Positions 5,246 through 21,741 of a stretch of DNA of 35,795 nucleotides are shown here, piece by piece. Position 1 is the first letter of the stretch. The number at the start of each line of letters is the position of its first letter. The stretch covers positions 1 through 35,795 of the forward strand of contig JAHIPI010000079.1 in assembly GCA_018894435.1 (NCBI GenBank), given 5' to 3'. This DNA comes from Candidatus Omnitrophota bacterium (lineage in GTDB: Bacteria > Omnitrophota > Gorgyraeia > JAHIPI01). Both the position numbers and the translations under genes were made by a program. The notes below the pieces were generated by a model. The model was not told where the DNA came from. It saw only the letters and a program-made list of their open reading frames with translations, and did not search any database.

Positions 5246-5732
5246 ATTTCTTGTAGACCTTCCATATAGATACAAAAATCAGTATTATCCCAAAAAGTAT
5301 CGCGTAGCGCACTTTAAGCTTGTCGATCGGCACGGTGATCTTATAACCCTCTTTTAATATAACCAGGCTGTTTGCGTGAATATCCAGGTCCCCGCCATGT
5401 TCACTACAGCTGCGGTTAAACGTGCCCTTCACTTCTATTAAATCGCCTATTTGATTATAAGCGCCCTTATTCGCAATATCTTTTACAAGGCCCTTAGGCG
5501 CCCATATCCCTATAGCGGTAGCAGCGTCTTTGACATTTACCCAGACATGTTCGCCGCGCGCCATTATGTCGCCTATGACCTCGCCCTCATATGCCACGGT
5601 TTTTCCGTCGTACCCTACCGCATCGTCGATAAGCTCGACGCTGGAGACTGGCTCGGCATGACATATAGCCGAAAATATAAACAATAAGCTGATAGCTGAT
5701 AGCTGATAGCTGATAGCTCTTTTCATAATCAT
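5223..5732 (-). CDS. Exported OB-fold membrane protein of unknown function
   Basis: The 169-residue protein has a signal peptide (cleavage likely after SAICHA). A beta-rich domain follows (about residues 35-135) with the pattern TVAYEGEVIG..., VWVNVKD, IGDLIEVKGTF and HANSLVIL, typical of a small OB fold of the BOF/tRNA_anti-like type. It ends with a C-terminal transmembrane helix and a short basic tail. I do not recognise a specific function. It is the last gene of the Trk operon, starting in an ATGA overlap with trkH, so it may act with K+ uptake or in envelope stress. Codons 5-15, inside the signal peptide, are made from a 7-base tandem repeat whose change in copy number would shift the frame. 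The 3' end overlaps rnfB convergently by 23 bases. Confidence 0.78.
   Translation of the reverse strand: MIMKRAISYQLSAISLLFIFSAICHAEPVSSVELIDDAVGYDGKTVAYEGEVIGDIMARGEHVWVNVKDAATAIGIWAPKGLVKDIANKGAYNQIGDLIEVKGTFNRSCSEHGGDLDIHANSLVILKEGYKITVPIDKLKVRYAILFGIILIFVSIWKVYKKFISSFGQ
5687..5718. repeat. Heptanucleotide tandem repeat (AGCTGAT, about 4.6 copies)
   Basis: Four perfect AGCTGAT units (5687-5693, 5694-5700, 5701-5707, 5708-5714) are followed by a partial AGCT. It lies about 14 bases inside the coding region of the OB-fold protein and encodes AISYQLSAIS of its signal peptide. A unit length of 7 is not a multiple of 3, so gain or loss of one unit disrupts the frame. Confidence 0.9.
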
Positions 5733-7361: not shown

Positions 7362-8023
7362 TAGATCTTCCCTACAAACAGTTCAAGAAGCTGCTGTTTA
7401 TTTTCTACAAGGGTAAGCGCTATTATATCGTCACCGGCTTTTAAAACGGTCTTTCCTTTGGGTATAACGACATCGCCCGCGCGTATGATAGAAACAAGGA
7501 CTGAATCGGAGGGAAGGGTTATCTCCTGCACCATTTTGTTTATGACAGGCGAATCTTTGGGAAGATCCACGCGCACTATGGCGAGCTTGCCTCTATTGAA
7601 ACTCATAAGGTTTACAAAATCCGCGAAAGATACTTCTTCTTCTATGATCTTCGCCAGAATCCTTGTCGCATCTATGGGGATATCTATGCCAAGCTCCGCA
7701 AAGGTCCGCTCATTCTTTGGATCGTTGACCCTGGCGACGGTCCTTTCTACGCCAAATCTCTCTTTGGCAAGCTGGCATATGACAAGGTTATCTTCGTCGT
7801 CGCCCGTAACTGCCGCAACGACGTTCGCGCGCGAAATACCCGCATCTTCAAGAATCTTGAGCTCGCAAGCGTCGCCGTTTATAACCAGGAAATTGTTGTC
7901 TTTGGCTATTTCATCGCATACGGCTTTACTTTTGTCTATTACAGCCACCGTGTGCTTGTCTGTGCAAAGTTTCCTGGCAAGAAAGTATCCTACCTTCCCT
8001 CCGCCAATTATGACTATATACAT
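7361..8023 (-). CDS. trkA: TrkA, NAD-binding regulator of K+ uptake (copy 1, half-length form)
   Basis: TrkA rings on the cytoplasmic face gate TrkH in response to nucleotide binding. The 220-residue protein has an N-terminal Rossmann RCK domain, with IIGGGKVG at residues 5-12 and the acidic Asp30 at the end of the second strand (VAVID). A C-terminal TrkA_C domain follows (about 140-215, with SVLVSIIRAGDVVIPKGKT and LKAGDDIIALT). Its length equals one half of the E. coli TrkA, which has two tandem units. A second half-length TrkA is encoded just upstream, so the two probably assemble together. It is 18 bases downstream of trkA copy 2. Confidence 0.93.
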   Translation of the reverse strand: MYIVIIGGGKVGYFLARKLCTDKHTVAVIDKSKAVCDEIAKDNNFLVINGDACELKILEDAGISRANVVAAVTGDDEDNLVICQLAKERFGVERTVARVNDPKNERTFAELGIDIPIDATRILAKIIEEEVSFADFVNLMSFNRGKLAIVRVDLPKDSPVINKMVQEITLPSDSVLVSIIRAGDVVIPKGKTVLKAGDDIIALTLVENKQQLLELFVGKI

Positions 8024-8041
8024 ATATTACCCCGCGCTCGT

Positions 8042-8689
8042 TTATACGATACCGAATCTCTTCCTTATTCTGTCAAGGCTTGCTATCTTAATTACGGCAA
8101 GGAGCGTATCGCCGATTTTGACATTTGTATTCAATTCGGGTATTATAATGCCTTCTACTCTCTTTACGATTGTAACTATAAGCTCGCCGGGGACATTTAT
8201 TTCTCCTACTGCCTTTCCCTGCAAGTCCTTATTCACTTCTATTTCTAAAACGCCTAATTCGCCACTTTCTATAAGATAGCTCGAAAATTTTGATTCAACT
8301 ACCTTGTCCCTTATCATAGCGGCGAAAAGTATAGTACCGCTTATAACGTCTAATCCCAGCGCCTTATAAATATTGGCTCTGTTCGGATCGTAAACCCTCA
8401 CTATGACTTTAGGGACGTTAAATATCTTCTTGGCGACCTGAGCGGCAACAAGGTTTGTATTGTCGCCGTTTGTAACGGCGCAGAATGCCTGGGCCTGAGT
8501 AATGCCGGCCGCCTTAAGCGAATCTATATCAAAGCCGTTGCCTACCAGCGTAATGCCGTTAAATGTCCTCCCAAGGCGTTCAAAGCTGGTGGGATTCCTG
8601 TCTATTACGACGACATTGTGGCCTTCGCTTGATAGAAGCTTCGCAAGCTCAGAGCCCACCCTGCCGCAACCTAAGATTATGACGTACAT
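8042..8689 (-). CDS. trkA: TrkA, NAD-binding regulator of K+ uptake (copy 2, first gene of the operon)
   Basis: This is a second half-length TrkA of 215 residues. It has the Rossmann motif ILGCGRVG (5-12), Asp30 after VVVID and a C-terminal TrkA_C domain (about 137-210, IPELNTNVKIGDTLLAVIK). It differs clearly from copy 1, so this is an old duplication or a heteromeric pair rather than a recent copy. The start has a strong GGGGGG ribosome binding site 3-9 bases upstream and a consensus promoter upstream (8714-8742). It is therefore the first gene of the trkA-trkA-peptide-trkH-OB-fold operon. Confidence 0.93.
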   Translation of the reverse strand: MYVIILGCGRVGSELAKLLSSEGHNVVVIDRNPTSFERLGRTFNGITLVGNGFDIDSLKAAGITQAQAFCAVTNGDNTNLVAAQVAKKIFNVPKVIVRVYDPNRANIYKALGLDVISGTILFAAMIRDKVVESKFSSYLIESGELGVLEIEVNKDLQGKAVGEINVPGELIVTIVKRVEGIIIPELNTNVKIGDTLLAVIKIASLDRIRKRFGIV

Positions 8690-8713
8690 TGACCCCCCTC
8701 AATATTAGGATAT

Positions 8714-8742
8714 AATATACCATATGAATCTGGCGATGTCAA
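8714..8742 (-). promoter_or_regulatory. Sigma70-type promoter of the trk operon
   Basis: On the minus strand, TTGACA (8737-8742) and TATATT (8714-8719) are separated by 17 bases, about 25 bases before the trkA copy 2 ATG at 8689. This leaves room for a conventional short leader with a GGGGGG Shine-Dalgarno sequence. Confidence 0.75.
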
Positions 8743-8815
8743 TAATAGTGAAACTAAGCACTTCTATCTGATGATAAGGTTAGCATGCCCGCAGCAGACA
8801 AGATTGAAAATTTCG

Positions 8816-8844
8816 TTGTTTCATCCCGCCCTTCCTGTTATAAT
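8816..8844 (+). promoter_or_regulatory. Sigma70-type promoter of the nucleotidyltransferase gene
   Basis: TTGTTT (8816-8821) and a perfect TATAAT (8839-8844) are separated by 17 bases. The -10 box ends 7 bases before the ATG at 8852, predicting a leaderless or nearly leaderless mRNA. The -10 box sits between the arms of a 9-base inverted repeat. Confidence 0.65.
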
Positions 8845-8855
8845 GAGCGGGATGA
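8821..8855. repeat. 9-base inverted repeat spanning a -10 box and start codon
   Basis: TCATCCCGC (8821-8829) and its perfect complement GCGGGATGA (8847-8855) flank a 17-base centre that contains TATAAT. The right arm includes the ATG of the nucleotidyltransferase. It may be an operator or a small start-site hairpin; chance cannot be excluded. Confidence 0.5.
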
Positions 8856-10087
8856 AAGACCTCATTAAAAAAATCCCAAAAGAAAAGGCCTTTATTATTT
8901 ATCTTTTGAGAAATAGCATCTATGATTCCTTTGACCTACCAAGTCATCGTTTTATTAAGCAGGATATAGATTGGACGGCGGTATTGAGTGCTGCTATTTC
9001 CTATAAAATTGAGCCACTTATATATTACGAATTAAATAAACGTTATGGCATCAATTCTTCTCTACCCTCACCCGTAATAAACGCTCTTACGAGCTACTAT
9101 GAAAAAACTTTAAAAAAGAATACCCTCCTTTGGCAGGAATTCTGCAGAATTACAGATACTCTGCGCGAAAAAGAAATAGACTATCTTCCATTAAAAGGTA
9201 TTATTCTGATAAAGACAGTCTATTCCAACATAGGTATAAGAAAAATGTCTGATATTGACATCTTAATAAGAAGTAAGGATGTTGATGTTGTAACAAACGA
9301 TCTCCTCCGCTTGGGCTATAAGAAAATTCGCGATGACGCAAAAAACCATTATACGTATATAAACGACACTATCAGTAATGATAAAATAGAAGTGGATGTC
9401 CATACAAAATTCAGGTACGGCGTAGACAAAAACTCCTTACCTTCTGAAATCTGGCAAAAGAAAAAAAGCTATACGATCGACGGGAAGGAAACGGGCGTCC
9501 CATCGCCGGAGGATCTTTTTTTATGCCTGGCATCGAATATATGTTATCGCCGCCTCCTGAAAAACCTATATGATATGGCGTCATTACTTCAAAAATATAA
9601 AGGAGATTTCGACTGGGACTACGTTTTGAAGGAAGCTGGAAAAGATGGTTATCTTAGAACATGTGCCTTCTTCGCTCTTTTCTGTTTAAAAAAATTATTA
9701 AATACAGATATATATGATGCCCATATTAACAAGATCAAAATAAATTACCTGCGGCAGATAACCATCGAGTATGTCCTGACAAAACGCCTTACATCGGAAA
9801 GCTATGCCGTTCTAGAACGTAGATTCAAGCTATTGCGCTACGTTATTTTCCCGGGGGAGATCAAACTGTCGGCTGTTATGCTGCACCATAGAATAGCTAA
9901 CGGCAGACACCTGAAGGAAACGGTGGATTTGAAACTGGGCCTTTCAGATAATAAACAGGTACGTTTCAGGGGCATGAAGATACTGATCAGGAATATTATA
10001 TTTTCCTTTATTATCTCCTACAAGGTCCTGAGATTCTATTTAATAAAGAAGCCCTTAAGAAGCATCTGCGGGACACAGTTGCAGTAA
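8852..10087 (+). CDS. NTP_transf_5-type nucleotidyltransferase (copy 1)
   Basis: The family is the uncharacterised nucleotidyltransferase group PF14907, found near peptide-modification and polysaccharide genes; the substrate is unknown. The signature is LPLKGIILIKTVY followed by RKMSDIDILI, with candidate metal-binding Asp134 and Asp136 of the DxD pair. The N-terminal third is helical (DWTAVLSAAISYKIEPLIYYEL) and matches the layout of the second copy at 17263-18324. The frame stays open upstream to an ATG at 8771. I choose 8852 (411 residues, MKDLIKKIPKEKAF) because the promoter -10 box at 8839-8844 lies between the two and the upstream part has no ribosome binding site. The 3' end overlaps the convergent tmk-like gene by 33 bases. 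Confidence 0.8.
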   Translation: MKDLIKKIPKEKAFIIYLLRNSIYDSFDLPSHRFIKQDIDWTAVLSAAISYKIEPLIYYELNKRYGINSSLPSPVINALTSYYEKTLKKNTLLWQEFCRITDTLREKEIDYLPLKGIILIKTVYSNIGIRKMSDIDILIRSKDVDVVTNDLLRLGYKKIRDDAKNHYTYINDTISNDKIEVDVHTKFRYGVDKNSLPSEIWQKKKSYTIDGKETGVPSPEDLFLCLASNICYRRLLKNLYDMASLLQKYKGDFDWDYVLKEAGKDGYLRTCAFFALFCLKKLLNTDIYDAHINKIKINYLRQITIEYVLTKRLTSESYAVLERRFKLLRYVIFPGEIKLSAVMLHHRIANGRHLKETVDLKLGLSDNKQVRFRGMKILIRNIIFSFIISYKVLRFYLIKKPLRSICGTQLQ

Positions 10088-10687
10088 TTTTAGTCTGAAC
10101 GCAACAACCTTTCTTATCTCTTGCTGCGTTTCGGTGATCGAGCCGTTAGAATTAACGATAACGATGTCGCGTTCTGTGCTTAAACGCAAAAAATGCTTTC
10201 TCAGATTCGCCAAAAACCGTATATCTCTTTCATGGCAAGAAGTAGGTTTATTCCTGTTTTGTATCCGCCCTATGGCAATTTCCTCCGCGGCATCCAGTAA
10301 AATGCTCAGGTCCGGTTCTCTCGCAAATTCATAGACATGCGTAATCCAGTTATAGTCAACATTCATCGCCGCGGCATAGGCAATATTTGAGTAAAAATAC
10401 CTGTCTGCTATTATCGTCTTATCCGCCGCCATGGCGGGATTTAATCTTGCGCTCACAAGTTCCGCTATATCCGCCGCCCATAGTAAAGACGCGACGGAAT
10501 GGTTAAGCCCGCGAATAAGCCCAGATCGGCCCAGCTGATGTATGAACCGGCCTATCGGCCTGTCACCGGGTGCTACCAGTAACAAGGCATCGCTGCGCGT
10601 CTGAGACAGGTAGTCATAAAGAAGCTTTGCCTGAGTCGTTTTTCCGCTTCCGTCAATTCCGTCTATAGATATCAGAAATCCGCCCAT
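10055..10687 (-). CDS. Thymidylate kinase-like P-loop kinase, diverged
   Basis: Thymidylate kinases phosphorylate dTMP to dTDP. The 210-residue protein has the P-loop GIDGSGKTTQ (residues 10-19), the DRYFYSNIAY segment (family: DRY..S..AYQ) and a basic lid region (IGRIQNRNKPTS). Two dTMP-site segments depart from the family: EPGG is replaced by APGD, and the arginine of the 'AADRAQH' helix, which contacts dTMP, is replaced by isoleucine (LLWAADIAELV). It may therefore not be the housekeeping enzyme and could act on another nucleotide or sugar-linked substrate. It is the last gene of the ABC-exporter operon and converges on nucleotidyltransferase copy 1, with overlapping ends. Upstream it is 26 bases from the pilin-like gene. 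Confidence 0.75.
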   Translation of the reverse strand: MGGFLISIDGIDGSGKTTQAKLLYDYLSQTRSDALLLVAPGDRPIGRFIHQLGRSGLIRGLNHSVASLLWAADIAELVSARLNPAMAADKTIIADRYFYSNIAYAAAMNVDYNWITHVYEFAREPDLSILLDAAEEIAIGRIQNRNKPTSCHERDIRFLANLRKHFLRLSTERDIVIVNSNGSITETQQEIRKVVAFRLKLLQLCPADAS

Positions 10688-10713
10688 CTGTCAAATTCCG
10701 CCTTCCCTCTGCC

Positions 10714-11145
10714 CTAATATTCGCTATAGGGCTTTCCGTTAACATCATTACCGGTTAAATTAACATGAACCTTTTTACCGATATTGTCCCAGTACCAACC
10801 ACCGGAATTTCCCTGATAATTTACCACTTTCCTTGACCCTGTTACCCCGTCCTCCGGTATGCCCTGAATATGTACGCGTCCGCTGGGGGAGGTTCCGTCC
10901 GCCAAATTGGATAGATCGGTGCGTGGGCATCGTTTTTCCATCGCATAAAAACTAATAACGGCTTTGCGGAGGTTTTCCAGGTTGATCTTGGTAATGGCAA
11001 CTGCTAACTGCTTATCTACTTTACGCCTGTCATGCGCGAATTTGACGAAAATCCCGATAATTAAAACTCCGAGAATAACGGCAATCACAATCATCCTTAT
11101 CGCGGCGAAGCCTTTTTCAGTGTTAATAAACAGCTTGTTCACCAT
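10714..11145 (-). CDS. Type IV pilin/pseudopilin-like protein with altered N-terminus
   Basis: The 143-residue protein begins with a short basic leader ending in Gly (NTEKG), then FAAIRMIVIAVILGVLIIGIF. This is the shape of a class III signal peptide plus the pilin N-terminal helix (KG|FTLIELMIVV...). The conserved Glu at mature position 5 is replaced by Arg. Residues 37-60 form the amphipathic helix continuation. The C-terminal region (SGGWYWDNIGKKVHVNLTG) resembles the head of small pseudopilins found in PVC-type bacteria. Its start overlaps the end of the glycosyltransferase gene by 23 bases. No prepilin peptidase, ATPase or secretin is in the window. A role in surface assembly with the polysaccharide exporter is possible but only inferred from location. 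Confidence 0.7.
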   Translation of the reverse strand: MVNKLFINTEKGFAAIRMIVIAVILGVLIIGIFVKFAHDRRKVDKQLAVAITKINLENLRKAVISFYAMEKRCPRTDLSNLADGTSPSGRVHIQGIPEDGVTGSRKVVNYQGNSGGWYWDNIGKKVHVNLTGNDVNGKPYSEY

Positions 11146-12304
11146 TTGCCACCTTTTCTTTCAGCAATAAGTAGATATCTTTTATTTTTGAAGTGCTGCT
11201 ACTCCACAGGTATCCTTTCAGCACTTCTGTAACTTCGGATGATAAATACCGTGTTTTGAGAATAGCGTCGGCGAAGCGGTTCAGGCTGCTTACCGTAACA
11301 AACGGCTTTAAGTCGCCATATCCCCTCATGCCGAATTCGGTAGACACAACCGGCAGATTATAGGTAAGGTAATCAAGGACCTTTAAAGACGTCCCGCCTC
11401 CCTGTGTAACGGGGTTTATGGCCGCGGTCGAGACTGCCGCGTATGATTTAATGTCGCCGCCGTCCGCGTTTATAAATACATTATCTATTTTATACTTTTT
11501 GAACCTTTTTCCGCAAGTGCCTTTTATAATAAAAGCGCATTCTCTTTTAAGCTGTGAGGCCAGCTTATCTAATATAAACCTGACCGCGACCCGGTTGTGC
11601 TCCACATCGCTTCCGGAAAAAAGTATCCTCCTATCAAACTGAGAGAGCCTGGGAAATTTCTTTATTATATCATCTTCTATTCCGCTATGATTTGAAACCT
11701 GCTTAACACCGTTTGGTATGACCGAAATCTTGTCCTTCTCGGCACCATAAAGCGCTACGAACCTGTTCTTGTCCTCTTCCGAACAGGTAAATATTCCGGC
11801 GGAACGCAGGATAAGCTTTTTTTCAAGGTCATATATCCTGTTTAACGCCAGTTTGTTCGCGAACGCAGTGCGGCATTCCGACTTTACATAATCATATTCA
11901 ACATTATGGGCGTCATAAATGACTATTTTTTGTGACGGCAGATGATCGAGTAGATCGGCAAAACTGGCATGCTCGAACTGATATATGTCAAATGCTCTAA
12001 GATATTCCCTTATAAAAAACCTGTAACCGGGGTGAAATGAGACAATATACTGAAAGGGCAGAAATCTGTAAGCGCATAAAGCAAAAATGCTGGACAACGG
12101 ATAATTTACCGAACATATCCTCAGTCTGTCGTTTATCACTATGGTACTGCGCTTACGTATCTTGATGAAGGGGTCAATCACGGTTACTTCAAAGTCATAT
12201 TCCGAAAGATTGCGCGCTATTTCAAAAATCCGTATCTTTCCGCCTGAATGGACCGGAAACAGTGAGTAAGGGGATACTATTAATATTTTTATCTTATTGC
12301 TCAT
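11123..12304 (-). CDS. GT4-family glycosyltransferase
   Basis: This 393-residue GT-B fold glycosyltransferase should transfer a sugar from a nucleotide donor in the cytoplasm. The N-terminal acceptor domain starts with KILIVSPYSLFPVHSGGKIR (glycine-rich loop for the donor) and EIARNLSEYDFEVTVID. The C-terminal donor domain includes SVIPNGVK, RRILFSGSDVEHN and the loop TQGGGTSLKVLDYLTYNLPV followed by VSTEFGMRGYG, which is the usual 'GxGxxxK.lEYma.G.PVV.T..G.rG' pattern of GT4 enzymes. It lies 66 bases after the ABC ATPase gene in the same direction, so it probably builds or modifies the exported glycan. The donor sugar cannot be assigned. Confidence 0.85.
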   Translation of the reverse strand: MSNKIKILIVSPYSLFPVHSGGKIRIFEIARNLSEYDFEVTVIDPFIKIRKRSTIVINDRLRICSVNYPLSSIFALCAYRFLPFQYIVSFHPGYRFFIREYLRAFDIYQFEHASFADLLDHLPSQKIVIYDAHNVEYDYVKSECRTAFANKLALNRIYDLEKKLILRSAGIFTCSEEDKNRFVALYGAEKDKISVIPNGVKQVSNHSGIEDDIIKKFPRLSQFDRRILFSGSDVEHNRVAVRFILDKLASQLKRECAFIIKGTCGKRFKKYKIDNVFINADGGDIKSYAAVSTAAINPVTQGGGTSLKVLDYLTYNLPVVSTEFGMRGYGDLKPFVTVSSLNRFADAILKTRYLSSEVTEVLKGYLWSSSTSKIKDIYLLLKEKVANGEQAVY

Positions 12305-12370
12305 TATGCTGTTAATCGCTTTGTTAATAGCCTACTATAACGGCGGTGGACGGTCAACAAGAATAACCCG

Positions 12371-13066
12371 TCAATACTCCTCTTTTGCCGTTAAATATGA
12401 AGTTACGACAGTATCCGTAGCCCCTTCCTCACGAATCGTTCCGTGGTCAACCCAGATAGCCCGGTCAGATACCCCTCTGACATCATTCATATTGTGCGAC
12501 ACGAAGATAATGGTCTTGCCTTCTTTTTTAAACTGACCTATTTTCCGAAAGCATTTTTCCTGGAATTCCTGATCCCCCACAGCCAGGATTTCGTCAATCA
12601 CCAGGATATCGCTGGGCATATGGATAGCTATGGAAAAAGAGAGGCGCGAACACATGCCGCCGGAGAATTTTTTTATAGGCATCTCTAAGAACTCTTTTAA
12701 TCCGGAAAAGGCGATTATATCTTCAAACGCCCTTTCTCGGTTCTGCTTTTTCAGACCGAACACCGATATCAGCAGGAATACGTTTTCCCGCACATTTAAA
12801 AGGGGGTTTAAGCAGCTTTCCATAGTTATCAGGGGTACGACCCTGCCTTTTACCGTAAGCGCCCCCTTTGTGGGATAGATTATCTTTGAGATAAGTTTTA
12901 TTATTGTCGTCTTCCCGGCGCCGTTCGGGCCGATTATGCTCACGGTTTCGCCCTGTTTAACGGAAAAGGATATGCCTCTGATGGCCCAAAAAAGGTCGGA
13001 TTTGGCAAAGAAAAACTCCCTTTTATGGTATTGCTTCCAAATTTCTGCAAATTCTATCGCGTTCAT
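12371..13066 (-). CDS. Polysaccharide ABC exporter ATP-binding subunit (Wzt/TagH/KpsT type)
   Basis: This subunit powers export of undecaprenyl-linked glycan or capsule through the permease encoded just upstream. The 231 residues contain Walker A GPNGAGKTT, signature KKFSGGMCSRLSF, Walker B ILVIDEILAVGDQEF (typical of the Wzt/TagH family) and the H-loop FVSHNMNDV. The start is set at the ATG 13064-13066 (MNAIEFAEIWKQY), which follows the permease stop by one base and matches the family's N-terminus; the longer open frame to 13144 is permease sequence read in another frame. There is no C-terminal glycan-binding domain, so chain-end recognition as in some Wzt proteins is not expected here. Confidence 0.92.
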   Translation of the reverse strand: MNAIEFAEIWKQYHKREFFFAKSDLFWAIRGISFSVKQGETVSIIGPNGAGKTTIIKLISKIIYPTKGALTVKGRVVPLITMESCLNPLLNVRENVFLLISVFGLKKQNRERAFEDIIAFSGLKEFLEMPIKKFSGGMCSRLSFSIAIHMPSDILVIDEILAVGDQEFQEKCFRKIGQFKKEGKTIIFVSHNMNDVRGVSDRAIWVDHGTIREEGATDTVVTSYLTAKEEY

Positions 13067-13067
13067 A

Positions 13068-13958
13068 TTAAATGATATCCGCCAGATCGCGTTCCAGCTT
13101 TTTAAAAAACCAATATCCGAGTACAAACACAGCCAAAGACACAAAAAATGAAATTGAGATACAATAAAAGTCCGGCGCGGTATTATGGATCAGGATTTTT
13201 CTGTAGCTATCCAGTATCCCGGCCATGGGGTTTAATAAATAAAAAAAGCGGTACTTTTCCCCTATCATATCGAGTGAATAAGCTACGGGAGAAATTAACA
13301 TCCAGGCCTGAATAATGACTGTAAGCGAGCTCTGAATGTCCCTTAAATACGCGTTCGAGATCGACAAAATGAAGGCCATGCCGAAAGTAAAAAGAAGCTG
13401 GATTAAAAATACGGGAATAAGGTATATTGCGCTGATCCCTATACTGATATGATACATAGCGAACATAACGGCGAGTATAAATATGGTGATCGCGAAATCA
13501 AGCAAGTTCGCCATTACCGACGAGATGGGTATGGTTATCCTGGGGAATCTCAGCCGGGTGATCAGATTATAATTTGATATCAGAGAATTGCATGAAAGGA
13601 CCAGGCAGCCTGCAAAAAAAGACCACGGCACCAAAGCCACAAAATTAAAAACCGGATAAGGCACGCCTTCGGAAGAAAATCCGGCCACGCGGGAAAAGAT
13701 AAAAACGAAAATGACCATGGTAAAAAGAGGATTGACTGCCGCCCAAGCAGCCCTTAAATACCTCTGCTTATAACGCTGTTTCAATTCTTTTAGAGCCAAC
13801 GCAATGATCAGATCCCGCCATTTGACCGACTCTTTAAATATCCGGACCATAGTATCTACTGCCATGTTCCCAGTACAAGTTTTCCCCATATTTTCATATA
13901 CTCTACTATCAGCATCAACAAGCGAAATATCTTCTATATTATTATAACTCCGATGCAT
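13068..13958 (-). CDS. Polysaccharide ABC exporter permease (Wzm, ABC-2 type)
   Basis: This is the membrane subunit of the O-antigen/teichoic-acid type exporter. The 296-residue protein has the coupling segment WRDLIIALALKELKQRYKQR before the first helix, typical of Wzm/TagG. About six transmembrane helices follow, with FPRITIPISSVMANLLDF in the middle and AYLRDIQSSLTVIIQAWMLISPVAYS, the ABC-2 family signature, before the last helices. The first about 35 residues (rich in polar residues) are unlike the family and the true start may be one of the internal ATGs (near residues 32 or 37). It is the first gene of the leftward operon, divergent from the GT2 gene. Confidence 0.9.
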   Translation of the reverse strand: MHRSYNNIEDISLVDADSRVYENMGKTCTGNMAVDTMVRIFKESVKWRDLIIALALKELKQRYKQRYLRAAWAAVNPLFTMVIFVFIFSRVAGFSSEGVPYPVFNFVALVPWSFFAGCLVLSCNSLISNYNLITRLRFPRITIPISSVMANLLDFAITIFILAVMFAMYHISIGISAIYLIPVFLIQLLFTFGMAFILSISNAYLRDIQSSLTVIIQAWMLISPVAYSLDMIGEKYRFFYLLNPMAGILDSYRKILIHNTAPDFYCISISFFVSLAVFVLGYWFFKKLERDLADII

Positions 13959-13995
13959 AGCTAGTGTCCAATACTTTTATATCCTTTAAATCCCG

Positions 13996-14024
13996 TTGTT
14001 TTTCCGCGGTGTGCCTGATATAAT
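13996..14024 (+). promoter_or_regulatory. Sigma70-type promoter of the rightward glycosyltransferase operon
   Basis: TTGTTT (13996-14001) and TATAAT (14019-14024) are separated by 17 bases. The -35 hexamer and spacing are identical to those of the promoter at 8816. The ATG at 14047 lies 22 bases after the -10 box, allowing a leader of about 15 bases. Confidence 0.7.
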
Positions 14025-14046
14025 AAGACAGGAAACACTTAAAGAT

Positions 14047-14748
14047 ATGAAACTCATTGTCCAGATACCCTGTCTAAACGAAGAAGAAAGCATCGCCCGG
14101 ACCATAAGGGACATCCCCCGATGTATTCCCGGTGTTGATAGGGTAGAAGTATTGGTTATTGACGACGGCTCGAGTGACAGAACCGCAGAAATAGCCATAG
14201 ATAACGGCGCGGACCATATCGTATGCCTTGATAAGACCAGGGGTCTCGGGGAGGCCTTTTTATCCGGCATAAAAACAGCTCTGGCGCTCGGGGCGGATAT
14301 AATCGTAAATACGGACGGGGATAACCAGTACAGGGGGAAAGATATCCCCGGGATTATTAAACCTATCCTCGAAAAAGAGGCAGAAATCGTAATCGGCGAC
14401 CGTCGCGTCAGAACTATGAAGCAGTTCAGCCCCCTTAAAAGACAATTACAGATCCTGGGCAATTTTGTGGTTCGCAGGGCTTCGGGCACCCCTGTTTATG
14501 ATGCTACCAGCGGCTTCCGGGCTATAAGCAGAGAAGCGGCACTAAAGCTCAATCTTAAGGCCAAATTCTCGCACACCATTGAAACTATACTCTTTGCCGC
14601 CAGAGAGAATATTACCCTGACTACAATACCCATAGAAACAAACCTGACACTGCGGCCTTCGCGCCTTGCTCCCAACATGTGGAGTTTTATAATCCATTCT
14701 ATAGCTCCTATTATCCAAACATACTTTTTCCGTAGGCATAATGCTTAA
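14047..14748 (+). CDS. GT2 glycosyltransferase, dolichol/polyprenol-phosphate mannosyltransferase-like
   Basis: DPM1-like GT2 enzymes move a sugar from a nucleotide donor onto polyprenyl phosphate at the inner face of the membrane. The 233-residue protein has IPCLNEEESIARTIRDIP at the N-terminus, VLVIDDGSSDRT, the metal-binding NTDGDNQY and DATSGFRAISREAALKL in the acceptor part. The start is the internal ATG at 14047, because a consensus promoter occupies 13996-14024 and the protein family starts here; an upstream ATG at 13996 overlaps the -35 box. It overlaps the next gene, a GT39-like membrane transferase, by 8 bases. That pairing suggests it makes the polyprenyl-P-sugar donor used by that enzyme. 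Confidence 0.9.
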   Translation: MKLIVQIPCLNEEESIARTIRDIPRCIPGVDRVEVLVIDDGSSDRTAEIAIDNGADHIVCLDKTRGLGEAFLSGIKTALALGADIIVNTDGDNQYRGKDIPGIIKPILEKEAEIVIGDRRVRTMKQFSPLKRQLQILGNFVVRRASGTPVYDATSGFRAISREAALKLNLKAKFSHTIETILFAARENITLTTIPIETNLTLRPSRLAPNMWSFIIHSIAPIIQTYFFRRHNA

Positions 14749-16132
14749 GAAATTCTCCGAAAAATCTATATATATTCCGCTCCTTCTCGCGATTATACTC
14801 ATTTACAGCTTCGGCATACGGAATATAGGCTTTCGCCAGCCCCACCACGCCACTTTTGACGAGATCCTTTACCTGCGTCTGGGGGAGCAGTTAAAAGAAG
14901 ATCCGACGGATTACATTCCGGAGGTGGACGCACAGCTCAAACAGCAGCACCGGATGCCGGCTTATATAAACAGGCCCATATTTAAACATCCACCTCTCTT
15001 TCCGTGGTTAATATCGCTCACTTATCTCGCGGGAGAGGCCGATATCTTTGGCTCTATGCCCGCAATTCTGGCGCCGCTCTTATCCGGGATCTTAATCATC
15101 GTATTTACTTTCGTCTTAGCGGCAAAACTCTACGACTACCGCGTAGGGCTCCTCGCCGCGTTTTTTCTGAGCATAGACCCGATACACTGGATATGCTCCG
15201 AAAAGATATGGATGGAGACGACCCTGACACTGTTTATGCTCCTTGCGCTGCTGTTCTTCTTCTGCGGAATCGTCCAGTCGGATAAATTGCTGCTCTTAAG
15301 CGGGATATTTGCCGGTCTGGCCCTTCTTACAAAATATACGGGATTGATCTCGCTTATTTCTATATTCATATTCGCCGTCCTCTTCGACGAAAAGCTCATT
15401 TACAGGCGGAATTTCTGGTTTATATTTATTATTGCGGCGGTGATATTCTCGCCGTGGATTTTGTGGAATTACAAAGTTTACGGAAGCTCTTTTCTCCGTG
15501 ATATGATCTTTGTCCACAGTGAATTTTACAAATTCCTGAATTATAAAGTTCTCATCGCCTCTTTGTCCGTCATAGCGGCCATTATATTACTGCTTACTAC
15601 AAGGCTTATTGGCCATAGGCCCGGTTTTAAACGCGCCCCATTTGCGCTATGGGCAGTGATTATCACTCTCTTTGCTGCAATGGCTCTCTTCTGCCCGTCT
15701 TTCCGCGCGGCGGCGGAGAATGCATTTATATATAACCGGCTGCCGCAGACGGGTTATGAAATCGGCATGTTTGCCGGAGAGCCATGGACCTTCTATTTTG
15801 GCAGGCTGCTCGAGTTATCGCCTCTATATCTCTTATCTTTTATATCCATGGTACTTTTTTCGTTAGGGGGCAGCCGGGAGGATCTACTATTGATACTTAG
15901 CGCATCTTTAATGATGTTCTTTTTTGTGATATGGGGCAATTATCAGTCGCGCTATCTACTGCCCGTCATACCTATTTTTCTTATGCTCGCCGGCCGCTTA
16001 GTGATATGGGTGTGGGATAGATCAAATACTGTATGCCGCGTACTCTTTCTGGCTATAATAGGGTATTTTATTATAAAGACCGCAAATGTGGATATCCACA
16101 TTGCGCTACCGAACAGCGTAATCTATTTTTAG
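14741..16132 (+). CDS. GT39/ArnT-like membrane glycosyltransferase (polyprenyl-P-sugar dependent)
   Basis: This 463-residue integral membrane protein has about 11-12 hydrophobic helices. The first extracytoplasmic loop carries HHATFDEILYLRLGEQLKED, containing the conserved acidic pair of the PMT_2 family, and then KHPPLFPWLISL. Later loops include FAGEPWTFYFGR and the helix segment SRYLLPVIPIFLMLAG, again typical. The family transfers a sugar from a polyprenyl-phosphate donor to lipid A, protein or glycan outside the membrane. The gene directly before it encodes the likely donor-making GT2. The acceptor cannot be told from sequence. Confidence 0.85.
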   Translation: MLKKFSEKSIYIPLLLAIILIYSFGIRNIGFRQPHHATFDEILYLRLGEQLKEDPTDYIPEVDAQLKQQHRMPAYINRPIFKHPPLFPWLISLTYLAGEADIFGSMPAILAPLLSGILIIVFTFVLAAKLYDYRVGLLAAFFLSIDPIHWICSEKIWMETTLTLFMLLALLFFFCGIVQSDKLLLLSGIFAGLALLTKYTGLISLISIFIFAVLFDEKLIYRRNFWFIFIIAAVIFSPWILWNYKVYGSSFLRDMIFVHSEFYKFLNYKVLIASLSVIAAIILLLTTRLIGHRPGFKRAPFALWAVIITLFAAMALFCPSFRAAAENAFIYNRLPQTGYEIGMFAGEPWTFYFGRLLELSPLYLLSFISMVLFSLGGSREDLLLILSASLMMFFFVIWGNYQSRYLLPVIPIFLMLAGRLVIWVWDRSNTVCRVLFLAIIGYFIIKTANVDIHIALPNSVIYF

Positions 16133-16144
16133 ACCGAAGGTACT

Positions 16145-17266
16145 ATGAAGATATCGATAATAGGCCCGACGCATCCTTATAGAAGCGGAATAAGCCATTA
16201 CAACACCCTTTTATGCGACGAGCTGAAGAGGTACCACGACATCTCACTTTACAGCTTCAGCCGGCAATATCCAGGGTTTCTTTTTCCCGGCACATCAGAT
16301 ATCGATACGATAAGCCGTTTTCAGTTAAAAGAGGACCGCGCTCAATACACCATAGACTCTCTCAACCCTGTGACATGGTTTTCCACGTTGCATAAGATCA
16401 GAAAGGATTCTCCGGATTTGATAATAGCCCATTGGTGGACGACTTTCTGGGGGCCTTTATATATTACATTACTTCCTATTCTTAAAAAGATGACCGGTGC
16501 AAAGATCCTTCTTATATGCCACAATGTGGAAGACCACGAGAACTCATCCTTCAAGCGCCTGATAGCTAAAAAGGTCTTCCCCGTTGCGGATTTTCATATA
16601 GTCCACTCCGAAGAATGTAAAAACAGGCTGGCGAAAATGCTGCCGGGTACCAATGCCGAAAAGGTATTCCACCCCTTATACAGCGTATTTAACAGGAATA
16701 GAATAAGCCCGGAAAAAGCCAGGGAAAGATTAAAACTCTCCGGTAACGTCATGCTCTTCTTCGGTATTATCAGAAAATATAAGGGGCTCCGTTATCTTCT
16801 GGAGGCAATGCCGTTCATTCTGAAAAAAACTGACCTCACGCTTATAATAGCCGGGGAATTCTGGGAAGGTAAGGATTATTACCTGCATTTAATAAAGGAA
16901 AAGGGGTTAACAGATAAAATCAGAGTCATTGACCGGTTCATCCCTAACGAAGATATAGAAATATATTTTAAGGCGGCCGATGCCGTAGTCCTGCCTTATG
17001 TAAAAGGTACCGGTAGCGGCGTAGCGCAGCTTGCACTTGCCTTTGGGGTGCCTATTATAGCCACAAAGGTAGGTTCCCTTCCTGAAATCGTGGAAGACGG
17101 AAAGACCGGTTACCTGGTGGAACCGGAAAATCCGGAGGAACTGGCTGATAAAGTAATTAAATATTTCAAATCCGGCAAAAAGGATCATTTTGTAAAAAAC
17201 ATGGGGCAGGGTAACCGAATATATTCCTGGAAAAGGCTGAGAGAAGCCATTGAAAGCCTGCTATGA
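16145..17266 (+). CDS. GT4-family glycosyltransferase
   Basis: This 373-residue GT-B glycosyltransferase starts with KISIIGPTHPYRSGISHYNT, the donor-side glycine-rich loop of GT4 enzymes. The C-terminal domain has FFGIIRKYKGLRYLLEAMP, then GSGVAQLALAFGVPIIATKV followed by GSLPEIVEDGKTGYLV, a common GT4 donor-binding pattern. It lies 12 bases after the GT39-like gene. Its end overlaps nucleotidyltransferase copy 2 in an ATGA arrangement, so the two are translated together. It is probably part of one glycan-building pathway with its neighbours; the sugar and acceptor are unknown. Confidence 0.88.
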   Translation: MKISIIGPTHPYRSGISHYNTLLCDELKRYHDISLYSFSRQYPGFLFPGTSDIDTISRFQLKEDRAQYTIDSLNPVTWFSTLHKIRKDSPDLIIAHWWTTFWGPLYITLLPILKKMTGAKILLICHNVEDHENSSFKRLIAKKVFPVADFHIVHSEECKNRLAKMLPGTNAEKVFHPLYSVFNRNRISPEKARERLKLSGNVMLFFGIIRKYKGLRYLLEAMPFILKKTDLTLIIAGEFWEGKDYYLHLIKEKGLTDKIRVIDRFIPNEDIEIYFKAADAVVLPYVKGTGSGVAQLALAFGVPIIATKVGSLPEIVEDGKTGYLVEPENPEELADKVIKYFKSGKKDHFVKNMGQGNRIYSWKRLREAIESLL

Positions 17267-18324
17267 AGCTTGAAAACTTATCATTAGAAAACAGGTTCCT
17301 GATCGACTTCCTGAAAGCGGGCCTTGAGCAGGATCCGTCTTTCCTTGATTCTTACAATCCATCGAAGTTAAATTGGGATGTTATTTTCGAAAAAGCCCTC
17401 AGGCACCGCATAGCCCCCTTCTTCTCTTTCGTAATACGGCAGACTGCCCGGGAATTCTCCGTCCCGGGCTCCGCCAAAGAGTTATTTCATAAGATATATA
17501 AACAGAGCATGGAGAGAAATCTCTTTATATATAAAACGGCAGAAAAGATTACGGATGGCTTTAAGGAATATAAGATCCCGCTTATGTTTATAAGAGGGCC
17601 TATTTTAGGTAAAGATTTATATCCGGATATAGCCCTGCGCCCGATGGCCGACCTTGACCTCCTTATCAAAAAAGATGATATTCCTAAAGCACATGATGCG
17701 CTTAACCGGCTGGGTTACCAGAACTTTATATCTTCATACGAGCCTCAGCGAATATACATAAATGAAAATATAGAATTACTGCTGGAGATAGAGCTGAATT
17801 GGGATCTGGAGCCCGGTTTCGGAAAAGATAAGGATCTGCTGGCGCTGGAACCCGAGTTTCTGTTGATACATTTATTGGTACACCTGAATAAACATATAAG
17901 GCGCGGCGAAACAAAGCTGATCTGGTTCTGTGATATTTATCTGTTCATAAAACGATACGGGCATACTATGGACTGGGAAGGCTTCTCAGGCATGATAAAA
18001 AATATGCGGCTTGAAAAGCATACTTATGAGATCCTCTATTTACTAAAAGAATGGTTTGGCATTTCTTATCCTGATTGCGTGGAAAACGGCGTTAAAACAA
18101 TCAGGCACTTTTATACTGAATATGATATATTTAATCCCGACTCAAAGCACAGAATGATTTATATAAAAAGGCCCGGGCTCAGGGTGCTTTTTCCGGATAA
18201 GAAATTTATGGCGAGATTCTACTCTGAGGACGGAAAGAGCTTCAGTTACTTCTTTTATCTTCTCAGGCTTTACAGGGGAGCTGTCATGGCATTTAATACG
18301 CTCTCACGAAAACTTACGCGATAA
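17263..18324 (+). CDS. NTP_transf_5-type nucleotidyltransferase (copy 2)
   Basis: This is a second member of the PF14907 family, 353 residues long. The helical N-terminus (NWDVIFEKALRHRIAPFFSFV) parallels copy 1. The active-site region reads FIRGPILGKDLYPDIALRPM followed by ADLDLLI, with candidate metal ligands Asp130 and Asp132. Where copy 1 and most relatives have Lys-Gly (LKG), this copy has Arg-Gly. A histidine-rich helix (LIHLLVHLNKHIRRGETKLIWFCDIY) follows, as in relatives. It is coupled to the GT4 gene before it (4-base overlap) and runs 55 bases into the convergent radical SAM gene. Members often occur with HPr-kinase-like and radical SAM genes, which are indeed next door on the other strand. 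Substrate unknown. Confidence 0.8.
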   Translation: MKLENLSLENRFLIDFLKAGLEQDPSFLDSYNPSKLNWDVIFEKALRHRIAPFFSFVIRQTAREFSVPGSAKELFHKIYKQSMERNLFIYKTAEKITDGFKEYKIPLMFIRGPILGKDLYPDIALRPMADLDLLIKKDDIPKAHDALNRLGYQNFISSYEPQRIYINENIELLLEIELNWDLEPGFGKDKDLLALEPEFLLIHLLVHLNKHIRRGETKLIWFCDIYLFIKRYGHTMDWEGFSGMIKNMRLEKHTYEILYLLKEWFGISYPDCVENGVKTIRHFYTEYDIFNPDSKHRMIYIKRPGLRVLFPDKKFMARFYSEDGKSFSYFFYLLRLYRGAVMAFNTLSRKLTR

Positions 18325-19412
18325 ACCTCCTTTACCTCCCTGAAAAGTAATCTATATAATTCGCAAACCATATTCATCCCTTTTATACGTGAAAAAACCA
18401 TATCGTCAAAGAGGCCCGCGATCCTTACTACCGGGCAACCCCTCAAATAGCAAAAATCACGTACCGCGCAACTCCTGCAGATACCATTGGAATAATTTTC
18501 GGTAAATCCGGGCAATATCTTCCTGTAAAAACATTCTTCTCCGCCCAGTCTTACGGTATCATCGACACGGCCTATGCAGAAATTATCGTCTGCCAGCGAG
18601 GAAAGCCCCAGGCAGGGATAGACCTTACCTGAGGGCGAAACCGATATGGCCCTTTCCCTGCGCAGTGTCGAACAGACAATACGCTCAAAATCAGACGGCG
18701 TATCTATCTCACGGCGCCTCTCAAGAGTCTTGACCATAAAATCGATCAGAAATATATCCATGCCGCCGTTGGGGCGCATATTATCAAAGTAAAAATGCGC
18801 CAGTCTCCTCAACTGGTCACTGGCGGTATCCACGCCGTTTTTCGTCCACCCCTGCTGTGTAACGGCAAATTGTAATATAAGTTTTTTGCATCCGAGAGAG
18901 TTTAAAAACGCGATATTTTCCATTAACCTGCCTGCGGTTTCAGATGAAACAACAAGGGAAAACACCGTATTCATGTCTACTAATCTATCGATATATTTGA
19001 TGGTATCCTTAAAGGTTCCTCTTCCGTCTTTATACTTCCGGTGACAATTATGGCTTTCCTCGGTACCATCCAGGCTGATAGTAAGGCATACCTCGGGATG
19101 CTTTTCTATAAAGTCCAGTTTTTTATCGTCAAATAAAGTGCCGTTTGTAATGATGCTGAAAGAAAGCAGCTGATCTTTATTGGCGCGCGGCTTACAGTAT
19201 TCCACTGCTTCTTTTATCAGGTCAAACCGCAGCATGCTTTCGCAACTAAAGAAATCTATGTGCAAAAGGCCCTTATTCGCGTCGAGAAAATAGTCGAGGC
19301 TTGTTAACATCGTCTTGAGGCTCATCTCTTCTCTGTCCTTACGGACCAGGCAATAATCGCACGCGAGATTGCACCCGTTAATAAGATTTAAAAAAAGAAT
19401 GTCCTTAGCCAA
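18270..19412 (-). CDS. Radical SAM/SPASM enzyme (peptide-maturase type)
   Basis: SPASM-type radical SAM enzymes commonly modify ribosomally made peptides or activate sulfatases. The 380-residue protein has the radical SAM cluster motif CNLACDYC at Cys14/18/21, FSIITNGTLFDDKKLDFIE and ISLDGTEESHNCHRKYKDGR (SAM-binding and substrate part). The C-terminal SPASM region includes ISVSPSGKVYPCLGL and ICRSCAVRDFCYLRGCP, a cysteine-rich set able to hold auxiliary 4Fe-4S clusters. The start overlaps the HprK-like gene by 8 bases, so the two should be made together. The final 55 bases overlap the convergent nucleotidyltransferase. No PqqD-like carrier or precursor peptide is evident nearby, so the substrate is unknown. 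Confidence 0.9.
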   Translation of the reverse strand: MAKDILFLNLINGCNLACDYCLVRKDREEMSLKTMLTSLDYFLDANKGLLHIDFFSCESMLRFDLIKEAVEYCKPRANKDQLLSFSIITNGTLFDDKKLDFIEKHPEVCLTISLDGTEESHNCHRKYKDGRGTFKDTIKYIDRLVDMNTVFSLVVSSETAGRLMENIAFLNSLGCKKLILQFAVTQQGWTKNGVDTASDQLRRLAHFYFDNMRPNGGMDIFLIDFMVKTLERRREIDTPSDFERIVCSTLRRERAISVSPSGKVYPCLGLSSLADDNFCIGRVDDTVRLGGEECFYRKILPGFTENYSNGICRSCAVRDFCYLRGCPVVRIAGLFDDMVFSRIKGMNMVCELYRLLFREVKEVYRVSFRESVLNAMTAPL

Positions 19413-20436
19413 CTCCGCATACCTCTTTCATTAATGAAGAGAACTTGTTATGATCGCGCCCTATTAAGAACCGGTAACATTTTGCCTTGCTTCCGGCTAC
19501 TAATTTACGATACGCATTTTCTACTTTTTTTATCCTGTTATCCTTGTCCATCATCCACCATAGGGAATTACCGATCTCCCTGAGATGCCCCTCTTTAAGC
19601 CTGGCTAACGCCTCTTTGCCGCTTATCTTTTTACACACGCTATCATCGGAATTATGAAAATTCAGGAAGACCAGAGTCGATGGCAACTTCGGGCCCAATT
19701 CGCTCTTTTTGGCAAAAAAGGCCTTTCCCAGATCAACATACCATCCTTTGGTCTTCTCAAAATAATGTGACGGATCCAGAAATTTCAGCCTATTCTTTAA
19801 TCCGGGAAAGTTTAAAAACATCCTCTTATCTACCCTGCTCCTTGTATAAAATGGCAGCAATTCACCCGACGGTCTGAAGAGGACCCTGTCTTCCGAAAAG
19901 AGGCGGTATCCGCTCTCCAGACAGCTCAAAGCTGCGGTAGTTTTGCCGGAATGGGTATTGCCGCAGAAGAGAACAGTCTTCCCGCCGTTAACCACACCGG
20001 AGCAATGAATGGGGAAAAGTCCCTTCTCTTCCAGCAGAATATCGAACATCATCTTCATGGTAAATTTTATCTGAAGTACTATATTTTCTGCGGATTTTGC
20101 AAAGCATCGTACTTCGTTTTTTGCGTAATCTACGCTTATTAAATACCTGTTTTTTATCTCGTAAAATATGCGGTTCTTATCGTCCGGCAGTACATAAACG
20201 GAATATGATGAAAGGTAAAAATCGCAAACGGCATTTTTGGGAATAAAGTCGCGGGGGAATATATCTGTTTCGATAACTACTATCGTACCGTGGTAAGACG
20301 GCGCCTTCCGGACCGATAAATAGGTACTGTAGTACCTTTTCATCTCCCGCAGGAGAAGGCTTGAGTTGGTCTCCAGGGTTACGGATACATTATAGGCCTT
20401 GAAATGTTTAGCTTTTACTTTCAATATCGTACTCAT
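19405..20436 (-). CDS. HPr kinase-like P-loop protein
   Basis: This 343-residue protein belongs to the HprK-related group found in peptide-modification cassettes, not to the true HPr kinase of sugar regulation. The C-terminal half has a P-loop GNTHSGKTT (about residues 159-167) preceded by HCSGVVNGGKTVLFC, then GYRLFSEDRVLF, equivalent to the acidic segment after the P-loop in HprK. The N-terminal half (about 1-140) is beta-rich and unassigned. I set the start at the ATG 20434-20436 (MSTILKVKAKHFKAYN), which overlaps the end of the CNNM gene by 29 bases; a start 9 codons earlier is possible. It is coupled to the radical SAM gene. It could phosphorylate or otherwise activate the same substrate; this is inference from context. 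Confidence 0.75.
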   Translation of the reverse strand: MSTILKVKAKHFKAYNVSVTLETNSSLLLREMKRYYSTYLSVRKAPSYHGTIVVIETDIFPRDFIPKNAVCDFYLSSYSVYVLPDDKNRIFYEIKNRYLISVDYAKNEVRCFAKSAENIVLQIKFTMKMMFDILLEEKGLFPIHCSGVVNGGKTVLFCGNTHSGKTTAALSCLESGYRLFSEDRVLFRPSGELLPFYTRSRVDKRMFLNFPGLKNRLKFLDPSHYFEKTKGWYVDLGKAFFAKKSELGPKLPSTLVFLNFHNSDDSVCKKISGKEALARLKEGHLREIGNSLWWMMDKDNRIKKVENAYRKLVAGSKAKCYRFLIGRDHNKFSSLMKEVCGVG

Positions 20437-21406
20437 CCTGTATTTCGCCGACGATCTCCTCAAGAAGGTCCTCCAGCGTCACCAGGCCTTCTATCTTGCC
20501 GTTTTCGCCGGTCACTATAGCAAGGTGGGTATGCCCTTTTTGAAATTCTGCCAGAAGTTCCGTAACCTTTTTGGAACCCGGGACAACTACTGGCGGCGAT
20601 ATAATATCATGCAAAACAACAAGGCCTTTATTGACGACCACGTTTAGGAGATCTTTTGTCTTTATTATACCCACGATATTATCCGGGCCGGACTTATAAA
20701 CAGGGAATCTAGAATAACCCGATTCAATAACCTTGTCCAGCATGTCGTCTATATTGGAATCTACGTCAAAAGAGACTATCTGATCCTTCGGAGTCATAAC
20801 GCTCCTGACCACTGTCTTACTTAGATCGAGGACGCGCGACAGCATCAAGTATCTCTCTTTAAGGAGCGTGCCGTCTTCCTGGGCTATTTTAATAAACGCC
20901 CTTATCTCTTCCTCCGTAATGAAGGTTTTTGCCTTCTTGGTACCGCCCGTAATTTTGGTGATAAAATTTATTACTACTGAAAAGGCACTGGCCACGGGAG
21001 CAAGAAAGCGCACCAAAACATATATCGGCCTGGCTAATCTTAGCGAAAGTCTTTCGGCGTACATTGCGGCATAACTCTTTGCCAATACTTCAAAGAATAT
21101 TATAAGAAAGGCCGCTATGATGGTGGCAAAAAGCACGCCCCTTGCCTCTCCCACCAAAGAGACAAGTATTACGGTAATAAGAGCGGCTATCAGGGCGCCG
21201 ACTACATTATTAGCAATCAATATAGTCCCGAAGAACCTCTCGGGGGCTTCCAGGATCTTCAATATTATCTGGGCGGGTTTTGATCCGTCTGATGCCAGCT
21301 TGCGGAGGCGCAGGCGGCTTATAGCGATGAATGAGATCTCTGATGCGGCAGTCACAGCAGCCAAGAGAAGCAATATAATAAGGGATACGATGGCTATGGC
21401 GCTCAT
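20408..21406 (-). CDS. CNNM/CBS-domain membrane protein (CorB/HlyC-TlyC family)
   Basis: The family includes Mg2+ transporters or exporters of the CNNM/CorB group. The 332-residue protein has an N-terminal CNNM membrane domain (about residues 1-140; AASEISFIAISRLRLRKLAS and PERFFGTILIANNVVGALIA are signature segments) and a CBS pair (about 195-330; VMTPKDQIVSFDVDS, YSRFPVYK, VTLEDLLEEIVGEIQDEYD). The usual C-terminal CorC_HlyC domain of about 80 residues is absent and the protein stops right after the CBS pair. It heads a leftward unit with the HprK-like and radical SAM genes, overlapping the former by 29 bases. The -10 box ends 6 bases before the ATG, so the transcript is probably leaderless. 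Function with its neighbours is unknown. Confidence 0.88.
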   Translation of the reverse strand: MSAIAIVSLIILLLLAAVTAASEISFIAISRLRLRKLASDGSKPAQIILKILEAPERFFGTILIANNVVGALIAALITVILVSLVGEARGVLFATIIAAFLIIFFEVLAKSYAAMYAERLSLRLARPIYVLVRFLAPVASAFSVVINFITKITGGTKKAKTFITEEEIRAFIKIAQEDGTLLKERYLMLSRVLDLSKTVVRSVMTPKDQIVSFDVDSNIDDMLDKVIESGYSRFPVYKSGPDNIVGIIKTKDLLNVVVNKGLVVLHDIISPPVVVPGSKKVTELLAEFQKGHTHLAIVTGENGKIEGLVTLEDLLEEIVGEIQDEYDIESKS

Positions 21407-21450: not shown

Positions 21451-21741
21451 TTAAGTAAGTTCATCCAGGGGCAGAACGAAGGCCTTTATGCCTTCGTTGC
21501 CGAGGGTCTTTCGCAGCTCTTTTACGCAGGATACCACTTTTTTGGCCTCGTCGTCCTTGCAGGCCACGTATAGAATACTGTTCCTGCCGGGCCATATGTC
21601 AGTGCCGAGATGCGTCCCGGAGGTATCGCCCTTGCCATAAGTGCCGTTTATTTTTGTATAATTCTTTATGGCGCAATGAGTTAAGACTTCCATCACTTCT
21701 ATGTCGACAGCTTCGTTATAGGATATCATTACCATTTTCAT
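21451..21741 (-). CDS. PII-like signalling protein linked to RND efflux
   Basis: This 96-residue protein has the ferredoxin-like PII/CutA1-size fold: a first strand KMVMISYNEAVDIEVMEVL, a loop with NGTYGKGDTSGTHLGTD at the T-loop position, a strand NSILYVACKD, a helix EAKKVVSCVKELRKTLG and a final strand IKAFVLPLDEL. It is shorter than canonical GlnB and lacks the uridylylated tyrosine context. Small PII-like proteins encoded next to RND pumps are a recognised group (PII-NG, DUF3240-like) thought to sense a ligand or metal and act on the pump. Here the ATG overlaps the RND gene stop (ATGA), so it is the last gene of the marR-efflux operon. The ligand is unknown. Confidence 0.75.
   Translation of the reverse strand: MKMVMISYNEAVDIEVMEVLTHCAIKNYTKINGTYGKGDTSGTHLGTDIWPGRNSILYVACKDDEAKKVVSCVKELRKTLGNEGIKAFVLPLDELT

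Follow-up and report, generated by a model that had tools for sequence, protein, structure and literature searches.

What does the group of tailoring-type genes in this window, a stretch of 35,795 nucleotides that is the entire contig C79 of a 1.57-Mb, 96-contig, ~95% complete Omnitrophota MAG, act on, and which of its members belong together? The original prediction had joined a nucleotidyltransferase, a SPASM radical SAM enzyme, an HprK-like kinase and a CNNM protein in one candidate modification system. By sequence and Pfam/NCBIfam matches all four genes are full length and arranged as predicted. The NTP_transf_5 (PF14907) nucleotidyltransferase gene (17263-18324, plus strand; E 1.3e-44, 153.1 bits against a gathering cut-off of 31.2) lies tail to tail with the SPASM gene (18270-19412, minus strand; PF04055 E 2.1e-16), with an overlap of 55 bp. 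The SPASM gene in turn overlaps by 8 bp the HprK-like kinase gene (19405-20463, minus strand; HprK_rel_B E 8.8e-8, under the curated cut-off), which overlaps the gene for a CNNM/CBS membrane protein (20408-21406, minus strand; PF01595 E 9e-40) by 56 bp if counted from the TTG start at 20463. Judged from the sequence, the ATG at 20436 is probably the likelier kinase start, which would reduce this last overlap to 29 bp. The host genome has a single HprK-like gene and a single SPASM gene of this type, and it is these two that adjoin and overlap. Their codon usage (54th percentile for SPASM, 32nd for HprK) and GC content are ordinary for the host genome, so that a very recent horizontal import of the two genes is unsupported.

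A kinase-alignment search of 384 genomes of the class gave matches in 40 of them, and besides the window we read 26 relative HprK-like loci, annotated with small in-house HMMs. A PqqD gene is present in 22 of these 26 loci and a radical SAM/SPASM gene lies within 5 kb of the kinase in 18. An S24/S26-like peptidase and PF14907 are each found in 12 loci, the two being fused in L014, L015 and L018, and nine of the 12 PF14907 genes lie on the strand opposite the kinase, as in the window. All of these counts are minima, since contig ends truncate several of the loci. In all of them, too, the five or six HprK loci used for training the HMMs match by construction while the remaining rows do not. Six relatives have a kinase/SPASM overlap of ~10-40 bp. 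Pfam confirms PqqD, SPASM, PF14907 and S26/S24 in sample proteins from the relatives. Because the same partners recur around the HprK-like genes of the class, and HprK, PqqD, S26 and PF14907 gave no match in 13 control loci picked because they contain either SPASM relatives or the weaker third match to PF14907, the HprK/SPASM/PF14907 grouping exceeds chance. The predicted association of these three families is thus borne out by the neighborhoods of the relatives, in which they stay together. In G001, a genome from the family to which the window belongs, a separate HprK-SPASM-PqqD cassette (L111) is present, the sequences of which are quite different from those of the window. U32-peptidase-like proteins were also seen beside the HprK/SPASM cassette at L111:2502-4122 (minus strand), L110:8151-8990 (plus strand) and L106:7993-9390 (plus strand), the last by a Pfam match and the others by eye.

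Membership in the assembly did not hold for the CNNM protein. The only CNNM match among the 26 relative HprK loci is one in L019, at its outermost end and ~8 kb away from the kinase. In the window the CNNM gene follows an RND/PG0541 efflux operon (PG0541 at 21451-21741; NF045581, above cut-off); its partners are PG0541 and the RND operon, not the cassette.

The position of the nucleotidyltransferase is more ambiguous, as it is the last gene of a run of GT2, PMT-like mannosyltransferase and GT4 genes (13996-17266, plus strand; Pfam) and could belong to this glycosyltransferase operon only. Glycosyltransferases are also present near several of the relatives' cassettes, and the relationship of the GT2/PMT/GT4 genes to the cassette is uncertain. 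The enzyme has the motif RG-x-MADLDLL, and both strong PF14907 copies of the genome carry [KR]G...D[LI]D. The other strong copy (8771-10087, plus strand; PF14907 E 2.3e-44), beside a thymidylate kinase (dTMP kinase by NCBIfam), is not linked to the cassette; a third and weaker PF14907 match is on contig C62. An AlphaFold2 model of the nucleotidyltransferase built from a single sequence (pLDDT 38) was unusable. Between the thymidylate kinase and a glycosyltransferase, positions 10714-11145 (minus strand) encode a 143-amino-acid pseudopilin-like protein with an N-terminal methylation-type motif. In L014, two GT2 glycosyltransferases (5010-6248 and 7589-8785, plus strand) apparently contain a PqqD-like domain, as judged by a cross-match to the PqqD profile.

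What the relatives' cassettes act on is suggested by their gaps, which hold short Lys-rich ORFs with motifs such as KKSYKKPKLLKFSKVKRIQ, KKTYKKPAIVKHG, KKKWLKPEM and YEPPRMTLEGNIR. A free ORF of this kind with a [YW]xxP leader is present in 17 of the 26 relative loci. These precursor-like ORFs usually have a ribosome site and are sometimes in tandem, as in L015 (five copies), L018 (several), and L014 and L103 (three each). We take their [YW]xxP motif to be the YxxPxL form of lasso leaders, and one of the ORFs has weak, sub-threshold matches to NCBIfam lasso models. In L111 and L016 the leader motif lies within a C-terminal extension of PqqD; these genes (L111:1851-2396, minus strand, VYKKPDIAKVKMQPEQAVLTCC; L016:2515-3006, minus strand, AYIKPQLINYENQQ) combine PqqD with a YxxP motif and a Cys-containing tail and are apparent PqqD-precursor fusions. 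A free ORF with a related KVKLHPEQAVLACQC motif lies directly upstream of the SPASM gene at L110:5783-5986. Because leader ORFs, free or fused to PqqD, are found in them, the relatives' cassettes are very likely RiPP clusters that combine a lasso-type leader, PqqD, kinase, nucleotidyltransferase and SPASM enzyme. Given these partners and leader ORFs, the sequences indicate that kinase, SPASM enzyme and nucleotidyltransferase form a recurrent cassette for RiPP tailoring and not a glycan system.

The window kinase has the hallmarks of an HprK-like enzyme, with His153, a Walker A motif GNTHSGKTT that includes Lys174, and an acidic pair, E191-D192, in an alignment of 27 homologues. Glu191 is exceptional, since all 26 aligned relatives carry Asp at this position. 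The family profile matches solved HPr kinases, including PDB 3tqf (E 7.8e-5), as well as PEPCK. It is unlikely that the N-terminal half of the kinase is a hidden PqqD carrier, because it aligns with kinases whose cassettes encode PqqD as well, and because hhalign gives it a probability of 0.4% against the PqqD profile, which is no match. An AlphaFold2 model from a 2-row alignment (pLDDT 44) was too poor for its fold to be read.

The SPASM enzyme likewise appears intact. It has the CX3CX2C motif (C14/C18/C21) and seven SPASM-type cysteines (C247-X14-GX4-C267, C312-X2-C315-X5-C321-X4-C326 and C350, the last spacing being X4 and not X3), which place it in the radical SAM/SPASM superfamily, while its match to the Pfam SPASM domain is sub-threshold (E 0.046). 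In NCBIfam it resembles the PapB, CXXX-repeat and SCIFF maturases, all below the family cut-offs, the best match being PapB (NF047865, E 1.2e-45). Its PDB match is the radical SAM domain protein 5wgg (CteB; E 1.3e-16, a distant-homology score). In a tree with support of 0.65-0.86 for the larger groups and very low support for the exact sister, it groups with HXS/PapB-like enzymes (PapB/SCIFF/HxsB-like), outside the clade formed by the SPASMs of the relatives' cassettes, these being similar to AhbD, NirJ and mycofactocin-type enzymes. In the class genomes searched, no close homologue turned up for either the SPASM enzyme or the nucleotidyltransferase, and two scans of genome contigs matched only the G033 locus and so yielded no named close homologue of the pair. 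Most of the nearest SPASM homologues sit in multi-radical-SAM clusters without HprK, PqqD or PF14907. Clusters of many radical SAM genes (L050-L058) occur in several Omnitrophota beside genes that by eye are HxsD-like and prepilin-peptidase-like, with no HprK or PqqD.

Searches of plasmids and viral contigs returned no SPASM homologue, and a phage search returned two distant matches, the better one in Phage Phass-1 among neighbors that are all hypothetical. In L061 (G056:C1), a SPASM radical SAM gene (10359-11645) lies within a prophage tail module (8141-19774; tape measure and central fibre J by PHROGs) and adjoins a B12-binding-type protein recognized by eye; the short contig L060 carries another SPASM gene like it. 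Activation of a sulfatase by the window enzyme, a role that would have counted against the original prediction, is rejected as unlikely because no sulfatase was found in the ~95% complete genome (no PF00884 match at E<=0.01).

The window thus shares with the cassette an HprK gene next to a radical SAM/SPASM gene and a nearby PF14907 gene on the opposite strand, the latter being optional; a PqqD gene in the locus, a [YW]xxP precursor and a SPASM enzyme of the cassette's own clade are missing. The missing carrier and precursor, which the original prediction had reported for the locus, extend to the genome. Pfam and a profile from the relatives gave no PqqD match better than E 0.13 anywhere in the genome, and no [YW]xxP precursor was found in the window or in the ~80% of the genome scanned by ORF. 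A precursor profile over the whole genome gave no credible match, which is a weak test because known precursors were missed in some control genomes too; its best match (C14:10030-10104, E 0.023) lacks a credible ORF and we regard it as noise. By a position-specific motif score, 11 of 19 held-out precursors rank above every ORF of the window genome, which is itself ~95% complete, and a divergent precursor could therefore be missed. Without PqqD, the pair must recognize its substrate directly, use a carrier unseen by these profiles or be a remnant.

Our analysis leads us to give an even chance to the reading that the pair is a divergent, carrier-less variant of the Omnitrophota HprK/SPASM/PqqD RiPP cassette that acts on an unlinked peptide. 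The kinase and the SPASM enzyme would be a probably co-translated peptide-tailoring pair, with the PF14907 nucleotidyltransferase as a possible third enzyme. By analogy with known systems, the SPASM enzyme would install a radical cross-link in the peptide, the kinase would phosphorylate Ser/Thr as PadeK, ThcoK and PsmK do on lasso precursors, and the nucleotidyltransferase would decorate the phosphate in the manner of PsmN. The peptide itself would come from a gene elsewhere and be recognized without PqqD. Partner recurrence, gene overlaps, the leader ORFs of the relatives, the intact motifs, the ordinary codon usage, the precedent of pseudomycoidin and the fact that the closest described SPASM relatives are peptide maturases argue for this reading, while the lack of a PqqD or precursor match, the SPASM enzyme outside the cassette clade, Glu191 and the possible place of the nucleotidyltransferase in the glycosyltransferase operon argue against it. 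Some of the latter observations would fit a remnant, that is, a former RiPP cassette stripped of PqqD, peptidase and precursor whose two enzymes are functionless or drifting, as would the absence of close homologues of the SPASM enzyme and the nucleotidyltransferase in the class. We consider such decay unlikely, as neither ORF is truncated, both retain their catalytic motifs, an ordinary codon usage and their overlapping arrangement; moreover, the SPASM enzyme is from another subfamily, so that simple loss from a cassette of the relatives' type fails to explain the copy in the window.

A different substrate class would be a glycan, lipid or small molecule of the cell surface, in which case the PF14907 enzyme and the glycosyltransferases would be partners of the pair; a glycan or lipid had been proposed alongside a remote peptide. 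This would be in line with the nucleotidyltransferase at the end of the GT2-PMT-GT4 run, with glycosyltransferases near several of the relatives' cassettes and with the lack of a peptide substrate found in the window genome. Because the relatives' cassettes carry RiPP precursor-like ORFs together with PqqD, and because the best SPASM matches are peptide maturases, this proposal is disfavored and probably wrong, and we regard it as quite unlikely. It is very unlikely that two tailoring-type genes came by chance to follow an RND-CNNM operon, next to a nucleotidyltransferase that is an ordinary polysaccharide gene: the class repeatedly shows these three families side by side, and the only HprK-like gene and the only such SPASM gene of the genome adjoin and overlap, even though CNNM is unlinked in the relatives and the window SPASM subfamily differs from the cassette SPASMs. 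Beyond the carrier-less cassette variant that we prefer, it is conceivable, if rather improbable, that the kinase and the PapB-like SPASM enzyme act together on an unlinked peptide or on a folded protein with no RRE/PqqD carrier involved, as a leader-independent two- or three-enzyme protein-modification system.

These observations place Omnitrophota HprK-like kinases and PF14907 nucleotidyltransferases in RiPP cassettes that join lasso-type leaders with SPASM enzymes. They predict that this phylum, for which most knowledge comes from metagenomes, makes phosphorylated and cross-linked peptides. With the copy in the window comes the question of whether a carrier is dispensable for enzymes of this kind.

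In the literature searched, no cassette combining HprK, PqqD and SPASM turned up. Among the closest known systems, the thioether-forming PapB/SCIFF (CteB) SPASM maturases provide the best family and PDB matches of the window SPASM enzyme, which differs from them in its score (156 bits against the PapB cut-off of 340), in that no N-terminal RRE domain was seen and in that no Cys-rich precursor is nearby. PapB introduces thioether cross-links into a peptide whose leader presumably binds to an RRE domain (PMC9413430). The SynChlorMet system (ScmC HprK-like, ScmD PqqD-like, ScmE/ScmF radical SAM/SPASM) is the counterpart of the relatives in combining HprK-like, PqqD-like and SPASM proteins, but all Scm model matches are far below the cut-offs (16.5 against 125 bits for the window kinase with ScmC) and the window has no ScmD-like protein. 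For the kinase itself, the HprK-related kinases A (TIGR04352) and B (TIGR04355) are among the closest known systems, the match to B being weak and near-full-length (31.6 bits against a cut-off of 200). Lasso clusters (PadeK/ThcoK, PsmK/PsmN) differ in that the SPASM enzyme is present here, no lasso cyclase was recognized and the window genome gave no PqqD or precursor. They are similar in the HprK-like kinase of the window with its His/Walker-Lys/acidic motif, in the nearby PF14907 gene, and in the PqqD and YxxP-type leader of the relatives' cassettes. In the rumen, lasso clusters commonly contain genes for HPr kinase, PqqD and a nucleotidyltransferase (PMC7533575). Lasso kinases phosphorylate a C-terminal Ser of the precursor via a His-Lys-Asp-Asp motif, and the annotated nucleotidyltransferase PsmN is responsible for a hexose on the phosphate, which makes pseudomycoidin a precedent for a kinase and then a nucleotidyltransferase acting on one peptide (PMC9266682, review).
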